Shown here piece after piece: positions 10,972 to 14,567 of a stretch of DNA of 64,000 nt. Source of the DNA: Planctomyces sp. SH-PL62 (lineage in GTDB: Bacteria > Planctomycetota > Planctomycetia > Isosphaerales > Isosphaeraceae); the NCBI RefSeq assembly GCF_001610895.1, contig NZ_CP011273.1, positions 6,200,001-6,264,000 of the forward strand, given 5' to 3'. The notes below the pieces were generated by a model that was not told the DNA's origin, searched no databases, and saw only the letters and a list, made by a program, of their open reading frames with translations. Positions within the stretch are counted from its first letter, which is position 1. The number at the start of each line of letters is the position of its first letter. The position numbers and the translations under genes were made by a program.

Positions 10972-11649
10972 ATGAACGTTACGCGGATCATCGACACGTT
11001 CGGTTACGTCATCTACGGCGCGCTGACGTTTCTGGCGGTGTGGGGGGTGTACAACGCGATCCTCCTGTATCGGACGCTCCGCAAGAAGACCATCAAGGAC
11101 CCCACCGCGCTGATCCTTCAGGTCCAGGAGCTTTGCCAGGCGAAGAAGTACGACGCCGCCATGAGCGTCTGCCAGAGCCCGACCTACTGGCACACGGCGC
11201 TGGCGCAGCTCATCGCCGTGGCGCTCAAGAACCGGGCGAAGGGGCTGGCGAAGACCAAGCAGCTCCTGGTCACGGAGTTCCACACCGAGGTCGTCGCCGA
11301 GATGGAAAACCGGCTGGGGTCGATCTCGACGATCGTCCGGATGGGGCCGCTGCTGGGGCTGCTGGGGACGGTGGCGTCGATGATCGCGGCGTTCGGCCGC
11401 ATCGGCAGCTCGGAGAAGGTGAACCCGAACGCGCTGGCGTCGGACATCAGCCTGGCGCTCTGGGCCACCGGGGCCGGGCTCCTGATCGCCAACCCGATGA
11501 TGATCGTCGGCAACGACTTCCACGCCCGGCTCCGCCGCCTCCGCGACCGCACCGAGCGCCAACTCCAGGACGTGCTCGACGCCCTGGAGCCGACCGACGC
11601 CCCCAAGGCCCCCGCCGACCGGGCCGCGAAGTCCACGGCGTCGCGGTGA
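10972..11649 (+). CDS. MotA/TolQ/ExbB proton channel family protein
   Basis: This 225-residue inner-membrane protein has the ExbB/TolQ layout. It has a first helix (YGALTFLAVWGVYNAILLY, about 14-32), a long cytoplasmic part and two further helices. The conserved family core is MGPLLGLLGTVASMIAAF (about 124-141), followed by ISLALWATGAGLLIANPMMI (about 159-178). With ExbD partners it would form a proton-driven motor in the inner membrane that energises outer-membrane transport or envelope maintenance. The ATG at 10972 follows GGGGGTCGC; the much longer open frame upstream is spacer. Two ExbD-type genes follow at 11721 and 12234, so the three probably form one operon. Confidence 0.88.
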   Translation: MNVTRIIDTFGYVIYGALTFLAVWGVYNAILLYRTLRKKTIKDPTALILQVQELCQAKKYDAAMSVCQSPTYWHTALAQLIAVALKNRAKGLAKTKQLLVTEFHTEVVAEMENRLGSISTIVRMGPLLGLLGTVASMIAAFGRIGSSEKVNPNALASDISLALWATGAGLLIANPMMIVGNDFHARLRRLRDRTERQLQDVLDALEPTDAPKAPADRAAKSTASR

Positions 11650-11720
11650 GCGAACGGGCGGTCGCCGTCCGATCGTGATCGACGTTTCCGCAGATCCTTT
11701 CACGCGAGCGGGGCGGCCCC

Positions 11721-12158
11721 ATGCTGCTGCGACGGGATGCGACCGAGGAGCGCGACGAACACATCGACATGACGCCGATGGTCGACGTGGTGTTCCAGCT
11801 CATGACGTTCATGCTCTTCTCGTCGCAGATGACCGGCGGCGAGCTGGTCGACGTCCCCCCCGCCCGTCACGGCGTGGGCGTGGAGAGCACGTCGGCGACG
11901 TTCCTCACCCTGCTGGGCCCGAAGGCGCCCGGGGCCGAGCCGGAGCTGCTCCTCGGCCACGGCACGGGGCCCGTCGCCACGATCGACCAGGCCAAACAGG
12001 CCGTCGACCAGGCGGCCCGCGAGGGGATCCGCAAGGTCGTCCTCCAGGCCGACGGCGAGGTCCCCCACGGTAAGGTCCTGGAAGTCGCCGCCGCCGTCTC
12101 CGAGATCGAAGGGGTCACCGTCCACGTCGGCGTCCAGGAGCCGGGAGGCGAGCCGTGA
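11721..12158 (+). CDS. ExbD/TolR family protein
   Basis: The 145-residue protein has the single N-terminal helix of ExbD/TolR. MLLRRDATEERDEHIDMTPM is followed by VDVVFQLMTFMLFSSQM (about 21-37). The conserved aspartate in M-V-D-V-V-F (residue about 22) is the proton-carrying residue of the family. The rest is a small periplasmic domain, with KVVLQADGEVPHGKVLEVAA near the end matching the usual ExbD pattern. It starts 71 bases after the ExbB gene and ends 75 bases before the second ExbD-type gene. Confidence 0.85.
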   Translation: MLLRRDATEERDEHIDMTPMVDVVFQLMTFMLFSSQMTGGELVDVPPARHGVGVESTSATFLTLLGPKAPGAEPELLLGHGTGPVATIDQAKQAVDQAAREGIRKVVLQADGEVPHGKVLEVAAAVSEIEGVTVHVGVQEPGGEP

Positions 12159-12233
12159 GCGCCGGGCCGGAACGCGCCGCTCAAGACGCGACCACCCTTT
12201 CATCAAAAGCACATCTTCATTCGTTATGACGAC

Positions 12234-13354
12234 ATGAGCGAAAGTCGGGGCGGCATGGCATCCTGGGACGTCTTCCATTCCGATCGCCTGGAGCTGGTGC
12301 GGGGGCTCTCCGCCGAGGAGGTCCGCGCCGGCGTCGCCTCGGGCGCGATCCGCGACGACGACCTGGCGCGGCCGTCGGGGACGTCGACCGCCTGGGTCCG
12401 CGTCGCCGAGGTCCCCGAGCTGATCGCCCCCCCGCCCCCCGCCGCAGCGCCCGAAACCGACGCCGCGCCCAGCCCCGACGCCGCCGACGACCTCTCGTTC
12501 CCGGTCCTGGACACACCCGCCCCCGCCGCCCCCCGCCCCGCCTGGGACTGGGACGATGACGAGGAAGTCGCCGAGGACGAGGATGGCGAGGAAGAGGACG
12601 AGGGCGAGGAGGATGAGGAGGAAGGAGACGACGACGAGGCCGGCGGAATCGAGCCGGACGGGCCCCCGGCCCCGCGCGTTCGGGAGGCCGAGGTCGAGGC
12701 CGCCTCGTGGGACCTGGGCGACGACGACCTGGACCTCGACCGCCCGAGTCCCTCGGCCTCGTCCGGCAGCCGCGTCGCCCTGCCGACGGCCCGCTCGCGC
12801 GACTACGACGACCGGACCGAGGACCTGGAGGACGAGGACGACGAGGACGGGGGCCTGATCTCGCTGACCCGGTCGGGGCCGCCGAAGGTGGAGGAGCTGG
12901 ACCTGGCGGCGATGGTCGACGTGGCCTTCCAGCTCGTCCTGTTCTTCCTCGTCACGGCGACGACGATCCTGTACAAGAGCCTGGAGATCCCCAAGCCCTC
13001 CGGCGAGGCTCCCCCCGAGGCGGTCGCCCAGGGCCGCAACAAGACGCTCGACGAGTTGCAGGACGACTACATCCTAATCGAGATCGACCCCGAGGGGAAC
13101 GTCCGCATCGACCGCGAGCCGGTCGCCGCCCGCCTGGAAGACCTCGCCGAACGCCTCCGGGTCGCTCGCGAGAAGACCGACCGCAGGACCATGCTCCTCT
13201 CGGCCGACTTCGCCACCCCCCACCGCAGCGCCGTGCTCGCCTACGACGCCGCCAACGAGATCGGCCTGGGCATCGCCATCGCCAAGCCCCCGCCCCCCCA
13301 GGGCCCCCGCCGGCCCTCCGCCCCGCCCCGGCGGCGAAGAAGGCGGGGGCGTAG
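12234..13354 (+). CDS. GYF-like domain fused to ExbD/TolR, apparent frameshift
   Basis: Residues about 10-60 (WDVFHSDRLELVRGL onward to RVAEVPEL) resemble the GYF_2 domain of membrane-associated proteins. A long acidic linker follows (about 95-220, with runs of D and E). It leads to an ExbD helix, LDLAAMVDVAFQLVLFFLVT (about 222-241), with the conserved aspartate, and an ExbD C-terminal domain (MLLSADFATPHRSAVLAYDA). The GYF-like part would lie in the cytoplasm. The frame that encodes all this runs past the usual end into arginine-rich sequence overlapping galE. If one C is added to the seven-C run at 13293-13299, the protein instead ends normally with APAAKKAGA at 13354 (373 residues). ATG 12255, after GGGGCGGC, is an alternative start. 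Confidence 0.75.
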
Positions 13355-13584: not shown

Positions 13585-14567
13585 ATGAACGTGCTCGTGT
13601 CGGGGGGCGCCGGATACGTCGGGTCGCATGCGGCCCGGATGCTGTCGAAGGCCGGCCATGAGGTGTGGGTGTACGACAACCTGGTCTTCGGCCATCGCGG
13701 CGCGGTCGCGCCCGGGCGGCTGATCGAGGGGGACCTGCTGGAGACGGACAAGCTCGTCGCGACCCTTCGCGAGAAGCGGATCGAGGCGGTGATGCACTTC
13801 GCCGCCTTCGCCTACGTCGGCGAGTCGGTCACGAACCCGGCGAAGTACTACCGCAACAACATCGTCGGCACGCTCTCGCTGATGGACGCGATGCGCGAGG
13901 CCGACGTCTGGCGGATCGTCTTCTCCAGCACCTGCGCCACCTACGGCGAGCCGGAAGGGGTCCCGATCCGCGAGACCCAGGCCCAGAATCCGATCAACCC
14001 CTATGGATATACCAAGCTGGTGATCGAGCACGCGCTCGCGGACTTCGCCAGGGCCTACGGCTGGGGCTACGCGGCGCTTCGGTACTTCAACGCGGCGGGG
14101 GCCTCGGCCGACGGCGACCTCGGCGAGGACCACGACCCGGAGACCCACCTGATCCCCCTGGTCCTCGACGTGGCCCTCGGCCGTCGCGAGCGCATCACCA
14201 TCTTCGGCGACGGGCTCCCCACGCCGGACGGCACCTGCGTCCGGGACTACATCCACGTCGACGACCTGGCCTCGGCCCACATCTCGGCCCTGGAGAAGCT
14301 GGGCCGGGGGACCGAGTTCCGCTGCAACCTGGGGACCGGCCGGGGGACGAGCGTCAAGGAGGTGATCGAGGCCTGCCGCCAGGTCACCGGCCACCCGATC
14401 CCCGCCGTCGTCGCCCCGCCCCGAGCCGGCGACCCCCCGCCCTCGTCGCCGACGCCGGCCTGGCCCGCCGCGAGCTGGGCTGGTCCCCCCGCTTCACCAG
14501 CATCGCCCCGATCGTCGAGTCGGCCTGGAAGTGGCACAAGAGCCACCCCGACGGCTACGACGACTGA
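13585..14567 (+). CDS. galE: UDP-glucose 4-epimerase, apparent frameshift near the end
   Basis: The protein interconverts UDP-glucose and UDP-galactose in the cytoplasm using bound NAD. It is an extended short-chain dehydrogenase: GGAGYVGSH (7-15) binds NAD, SSTCATYG (about 114-121) carries the catalytic S/T, YGYTK (about 139-143) is the Y-x-x-x-K pair, and RYFNAAGA and RDYIHVDDLA are typical of GalE. The ATG at 13585 follows GGAGAAG. The reading frame breaks in the six-C run at 14433-14438. Adding one C joins it to a good GalE tail (DAGLARRELGW, then SAWKWHKSHPDGYDD) that ends at 14567, giving 327 residues, the normal family length. The protein would otherwise run on through the next gene. 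I therefore think the gene is intact and the sequence is short by one base. Confidence 0.88.

Follow-up and report, generated by a model that had tools for sequence, protein, structure and literature searches.

An ExbB/ExbD module with an extended second ExbD

The window analysed here is a stretch of 64,000 nucleotides from the genome of Planctomyces sp. SH-PL62 (NZ_CP011273.1, positions 6,200,001 to 6,264,000). Based on open reading frames and Pfam profiles, a trio of genes occupies positions 10972-13354 of its plus strand, encoding an ExbB, a short ExbD (ExbD1) and a second ExbD (ExbD2) with an additional cytoplasmic head (Table 1). The first-pass annotation, made from the sequence alone, had described one ExbB and two ExbD-type genes lying together, and the Pfam matches of all three products are indeed above the respective cut-offs. 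The start codon of ExbD2 is located at 12255 or, alternatively, at 12234. In a structure model of ExbD2, the N-terminal domain is predicted with block pLDDT values of 90-98, the linker with block means of 42-59 and the periplasmic domain mostly with confidence; the best five PDB matches of the latter are all periplasmic domains of E. coli ExbD. A very acidic linker of more than 100 residues had also been noted earlier. With the boundaries used for the composition, it comprises 149 amino acids, 36% of which are Asp or Glu and 7% Lys or Arg, in agreement with that description.

The reading frame of ExbD2 remains open past 13354, up to 13661, in the assembly, and 13354 is the stop position in the frame used by relatives. 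ExbD2 of the four same-genus relatives compared ends in a Pro/Ala tail, which matches the window only in the next frame. Thus, the extension to 13661 is attributed to an apparent shift by one base within a G/C run downstream of about 13298, which falls beyond the folded domains and leaves the folded parts unaffected. A second apparent frame disturbance was seen by eye at about 14400-14567, near the end of a GalE-like gene starting at about 13584. Both disturbances (13298-13354 and approx. 14400-14567) are likely assembly errors in G/C runs.

Table 1. Features of the ExbB/ExbD module (window positions) and of the operon partners U and W found elsewhere in the class (positions in locus L106).
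Feature	Location	Strand	Basis or remark
ExbB (MotA/TolQ/ExbB family), 225 aa	10972..11649	+	Pfam MotA_ExbB 76.8 bits, cut-off 22.9
ExbD1, 145 aa, short cytoplasmic N-terminus	11721..12158	+	Pfam ExbD 51.5 bits, cut-off 25.4
ExbD2 with cytoplasmic head	12255..13354	+	Pfam ExbD 56.4 bits, cut-off 25.4; frames of relatives
GYF-like N-terminal domain of ExbD2 (predicted), approx. 57 residues	12258..12428	+	pLDDT 92.3; Foldseek GIGYF1 and GltJ GYF; GYF_2 below cut-off
Long acidic linker of ExbD2, predicted disordered	12429..12902	+	block pLDDT 42-59, residues 61-210; composition
TM helix of ExbD2; conserved Asp at 12918-12920	12903..12986	+	model helix, residues 216-243; invariant Asp
Periplasmic domain of ExbD2	13047..13280	+	high pLDDT; PDB matches to E. 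coli ExbD periplasmic domains
U, single-TM protein	L106:683-1588		without Pfam family
W, FHA or other N-terminus, TM, propeller	L106:4026-6500

A GYF-like head on ExbD2

The N-terminal domain of ExbD2 had been called GYF_2-like in the first-pass annotation, which named a failure to match GYF_2 profiles or a lack of conservation as the findings that would speak against this. Conservation (see below) and the predicted fold hold, but the match to the profile stays below the Pfam cut-off: GYF_2 (PF14237) scored 14.9 bits in the whole protein and 19 bits with the domain alone, and the cut-off of 25.8 bits was not reached. Among 28 homologous heads, 21 match GYF_2 with E ≤ 1 (best 1.3e-4), and GYF_2 is the top Pfam match in these, while any other Pfam family matches at most two of the 28. 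In a profile-profile comparison of the heads with 30 planctomycete GYF_2 domains, a probability of 72 and an E-value of 3.4e-5 were obtained over 39 columns. Searches against PDB sequences returned no GYF chain at E ≤ 10 for the head profile (the best match being a ribosomal protein, E 0.28), and no match at E ≤ 0.1 for the profile of whole ExbD2.

The model of the head (pLDDT 92.3) was compared with known structures using Foldseek. Rows 1-15 are all entries of GYF domains or of Tic/Toc complexes, with human GIGYF1 (E 0.010) in the first row and GltJ of Myxococcus (7z3c, E 0.012) in the second, both with a probability of 1.00; no E-value is below 0.001. Z-scores of the head against these structures in VIA range from 6.5 to 4.2, for which the tool advises caution. 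The head shares the predicted fold, an N-terminal Trp and the pattern of the second half with GYF_2. In contrast, its score is below the cut-off, and a Gly-Pro pair which is invariant in the 30 planctomycete GYF_2 domains is not conserved among the ExbD2 heads. As judged from the model, the ExbD2 head is GYF-like but not a member of GYF_2, with modest support from sequence and better support from the fold.

The window protein itself remains below the cut-off, but one GYF_2-ExbD fusion outside the class exceeds it. Twenty loci outside the class were picked for strong matches or long frames, and six of these were scanned with Pfam. GYF_2 matches on an ExbD protein were found in L233, L234, L240 and L241, of which only L240 is above the cut-off (29.1 bits); the heads of L228 and L229 appear GYF-like by eye, yet do not match GYF_2 at E ≤ 1. 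Across the phylum, the head profile matches in at least five of 392 genomes, with 15 candidates scored per genome and few of the genomes belonging to the Isosphaeraceae, so that this count carries little weight.

Conservation of module and head

Relatives were searched with ExbD2, and a match was found in 51 of 59. Six of the eight misses belong to the 37 genomes of the Isosphaeraceae (family f1; nearest named genome Paludisphaera soli) and are all less than 90% complete; the other two, G039 and G047, belong to other families. The N-terminal domain is present in 28 of the 30 loci of the best-matching relatives, and the remaining two (L020 and L024) begin at contig ends. Likewise, ExbB and ExbD1 lie beside ExbD2 in 26 of 28 named isosphaeran-type loci, the other two again being contig ends. 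Two loci (L056 and L058) are on contigs titled Candidatus Kuenenia stuttgartiensis. Their module is placed within the Isosphaeraceae part of a quick tree and, therefore, these bins look misnamed or mixed.

In comparison with eight relatives, dN/dS ranged from 0.17 to 0.47 in the head and from 0.18 to 0.42 in the motor part, and from 0.35 to 0.80 in the linker, with some dS values above 1. By this measure, the head is under purifying selection, comparable to the motor part. The genome of the strain contains seven matches to ExbD and six to MotA/ExbB. The other six ExbD proteins, including ExbD1, have 12-41 residues before the Asp (starts picked by eye) and, consequently, the head is special to this module.

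Exchange of heads across the class

Sixty further loci (L102-L161) were chosen among the matches listed for strong matches and variety of genera, i.e., not at random and with family f3 hardly covered; only L121 is from the Isosphaeraceae, and all others represent different families of the class. The N-terminus of ExbD2 varies between lineages and is either GYF-like, a zinc ribbon (CxxC...CxxC close to the start of ExbD2), a Ser/Thr kinase, or none that was recognised. GYF-like heads occur in the Isosphaeraceae and in L112, L118 and L120, the latter three with GYF_2 scores of 14.8-17.3 bits, below the cut-off. Ser/Thr kinase heads were found in four genomes of one clade (L155, L156, L158, L159). 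Two of the four were scanned with Pfam and, within a single open reading frame, match both Pkinase (E 2.7e-47 and 1.1e-48) and ExbD (E 4.6e-19 and 1.6e-19). As judged by eye, the Lys, HRD and DFG motifs of the kinase are intact in all four.

A tree of 86 concatenated modules was calculated, comprising 41 with a zinc ribbon, 31 with a GYF-like head, four with a kinase, two further GYF-like cases and eight without recognisable head; incomplete modules (L043, L052, L125), L060 and the paralogues L061-L063 were left out. Head labels, which were set by pattern and partly by hand, require seven changes on this tree, compared to a mean of 37 when shuffled. Based on these sequence comparisons, the heads are alternatives on orthologous motors, swapped lineage by lineage. 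The kinase modules form one clade (support 100/100), which sits among zinc-ribbon modules of family f2 in the quick tree; the kinase has, therefore, probably taken over the place of the zinc ribbon in one lineage. The eight modules without recognisable head indicate that the motor does not require a head in every lineage. The linker contains more acidic than basic residues in most cases regardless of the head (28/30 GYF, 34/41 zinc ribbon, 4/4 kinase).

In two loci, L146 (genome G452) and L161 (G051), ExbD1 and ExbD2 both have N-termini which appear GYF-like by eye; neither head of L161 matches GYF_2 in Pfam at E ≤ 1.

In the literature searched, the scope of which excluded most subscription papers, no paper was found that mentions ExbD together with GYF, together with a cytoplasmic zinc ribbon or, for Planctomycetes, together with a kinase domain or with domain architectures.

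Motor core and operon partners

ExbB, ExbD1 and ExbD2 follow each other in this order on one strand in all 59 complete modules among the 60 fetched loci; L125 showed only ExbD2. Two Thr of ExbB and the Asp in the TM helix of both ExbDs, which correspond to the pore residues of the family, do not vary among the 86 modules (86 of 86), and this supports the proton-driven motor supposed in the first-pass annotation. The module has the ExbB and ExbD families, the pore Thr/Asp and the periplasmic fold in common with TolQR and ExbBD motors. It differs from these by its two ExbD paralogues, by the long cytoplasmic tether and folded head (the latter as modelled) on one of them, and by a genome without TonB. 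The equivalog cut-offs of NCBIfam for TolQ, TolR and ExbB are not reached (tolQ 58 vs. 221 bits; tolR 18.9 and 29.5 vs. 127.3 bits).

The annotation had further stated that no TonB or TonB-dependent receptor is next to the module. Neither a conserved TonB nor a receptor adjoins it. The same is true beyond the locus: in the whole genome, which is rated 100% complete, there is no match at E ≤ 0.1 to TonB_C (4 of 14 control genomes match) or to the receptor Plug domain (3 of 14 control genomes match).

Outside the Isosphaeraceae, most loci of the class contain two additional genes. U, a single-TM protein, is encoded upstream in 46 of the 60 loci and W downstream in 53, with short loci scored as misses (TM helices of both assigned by eye). 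U has no Pfam match above the cut-off in the two proteins scanned and, in contrast to TonB and TolA, no conserved His in the TM segment (present in 1 of 32 segments). Twelve W proteins were scanned. A BamB-like PQQ_2 propeller is above the cut-off in 11 of them, the exception being the truncated protein of L120; TPR or YfiO is matched by several, in most cases below the cut-off, and FHA was found in five. In W of the four kinase loci (L155, L156, L158, L159), Pfam detects FHA in none. Profiles of U and W (E ≤ 0.1) match neither in the window nor in L032-L066, and neither gene is close to the module in the named isosphaeran-type loci. In 1.6 Mb of the 4.8-Mb genome of another isosphaeran (G017) no U was found and matches to W are weak and partial only, which speaks neither for nor against unlinked copies. 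The Isosphaeraceae loci seen consist of the three-gene core alone, the trio being all that is common to most named loci.

For the PVC group, section 8 of PMC12204202 describes TolQ and two TolR-like genes together with transducer genes for TPR and vWA proteins. As far as that section goes, a TolQ-like gene, a pair of differing TolR-like genes and a TPR partner are shared with the module. The partners here are instead U and W (with propeller and, in some cases, FHA), and no vWA gene was identified by inspection. Cytoplasmic heads go unmentioned in section 8. The module looks like one more system of this kind.

A motor with a candidate regulatory face towards the cytoplasm

ExbBD, TolQR and MotAB are usually described as proton-driven and engaged from the periplasm. 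In ExbBD and TolQR, a pentamer of ExbB holds a dimer of ExbD, the N-terminus of which lies inside the cell. The topology of the family would, therefore, place the head on the cytosolic side, which agrees with a Ser/Thr kinase at the same place in relatives. By analogy, an ExbB pentamer would probably surround an ExbD1-ExbD2 heterodimer. Going by what is known of the family, protons passing the Asp/Thr pore would move the ExbD dimer, which may exert force on periplasm or peptidoglycan. ExbD2 is modelled with its GYF-like head on a long, acidic and disordered tether, which would hang into the cytoplasm. A cytosolic partner binding to this head could place, engage or brake the motor. On the periplasmic side, the motor probably does Tol-like work on the envelope and does not serve nutrient uptake, because the operon elsewhere in the class mostly adds U and W with its BamB-like propeller; as neither U nor W adjoins the module in Isosphaeraceae, this part of the argument rests on the other families. 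Taken together, we favour, by a modest degree, a TonB-independent, Tol-like, proton-driven motor of the envelope, the cytosolic head of which serves docking or regulation.

The new feature of the module looks like a regulatory face towards the cytoplasm. Since zinc ribbons or kinases occupy the same place in other families, what the heads have in common is more likely a general function in docking or regulation. More tentatively, the interchangeable heads of ExbD2, together with an FHA phospho-reader on W in some lineages, may set the activity of the motor in response to cytoplasmic signalling. We know of no TonB, Tol or Mot system with such a control layer, and direct cytoplasmic control via the N-terminus of ExbD is, to our knowledge, not part of the usual picture. 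Given the swaps to a zinc finger or a protein kinase, our results suggest that intracellular signals may control a cell-envelope motor. Such control becomes testable with cytosolic heads that are exchangeable and include a kinase whose catalytic motifs are intact. The module is also a candidate force system in a genome without TonB, and U and W are two conserved operon partners of such modules elsewhere in the class.

A narrower role of the head would be that of a working GYF domain, which recruits proline-rich ligands in the cytoplasm and perhaps the proline-rich beginning of the adjoining linker as well. Besides the GYF-like fold and the 21 of 28 heads for which GYF_2 ranks first in Pfam, the linkers fit this idea: they contain 7-21% proline, and short motifs recur in them. 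Of 26 linkers, 9 have an FPV-type motif (mean of 0.05 after shuffling) and 16 an LPV-type motif (mean of 1.5). We nevertheless regard it as rather doubtful, as the Gly-Pro pair is not conserved, the GYF_2 score is below the cut-off and, in relatives, this position is taken by a zinc ribbon or kinase.

It is unlikely that the head is just a passive folding cap, exchanged by neutral domain shuffling, with only the acidic tether or nothing at all being of importance. The linker stays acidic whichever head precedes it and eight modules are headless, as such a cap would allow, but the dN/dS of the head resembles that of the motor part, and a kinase with intact Lys, HRD and DFG makes a poor inert cap.

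The heads have a possible parallel in Myxococcus, for which GltJ is reportedly described as a sensor of MglA-GTP. When the zinc-ribbon heads (38 of 42 rows) were searched against the PDB, the top match was the zinc finger of Adventurous gliding motility protein X (7zok, E 9.7e-6); for the planctomycete GYF_2 set, it was the GYF domain of that protein (7z3c, E 1.7e-14). According to an excerpt of PMC3169522, AgmX and GltJ are the same protein, and AglRQS is a motor of one ExbB and two ExbD proteins; MglA effectors include AglR and GltJ, according to an excerpt of a review (PMC12288465). Both systems share one ExbB with two ExbDs, as given in that excerpt of PMC3169522, and the kinds of GYF and zinc-ribbon domain. 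The planctomycete heads differ in being located on ExbD itself, with one per protein, and in the absence of MglB. By analogy, the heads recall the two cytosolic domains of GltJ, but the parallel is suggestive only, since GYF and zinc-ribbon domains are common and few have been solved.

Going further and taking the module as a gliding-type motor, with the head coupling it to an MglA/MglB switch as in AglRQS-GltJ, appears very unlikely despite the matching gene set (as excerpted from PMC3169522) and the match of GYF and zinc-ribbon heads to GltJ domains in PDB. Robl_LC7 (MglB) was found in none of 59 relatives, while three control genomes match, and the MglA/MglB circuit is thus not there. The Arf profile matches mostly in frames of about 1000 amino acids and likewise in E. 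coli and B. subtilis, a pattern that IF-2 would produce; consequently, these matches do not demonstrate MglA. That the module energises TonB-dependent uptake, as membership of the ExbB/ExbD family might imply, is hardly credible with neither TonB_C nor Plug in a genome rated 100% complete.

Apart from the module, the only GYF_2 match above the cut-off in the genome of the strain (33.7 bits) belongs to a protein encoded elsewhere (L066:3727-4719; C1, approx. 3159464). Hydrophobic segments and a Cys-rich stretch resembling a zinc finger are likewise present in this protein, so that GYF and zinc finger are again seen in a membrane protein.
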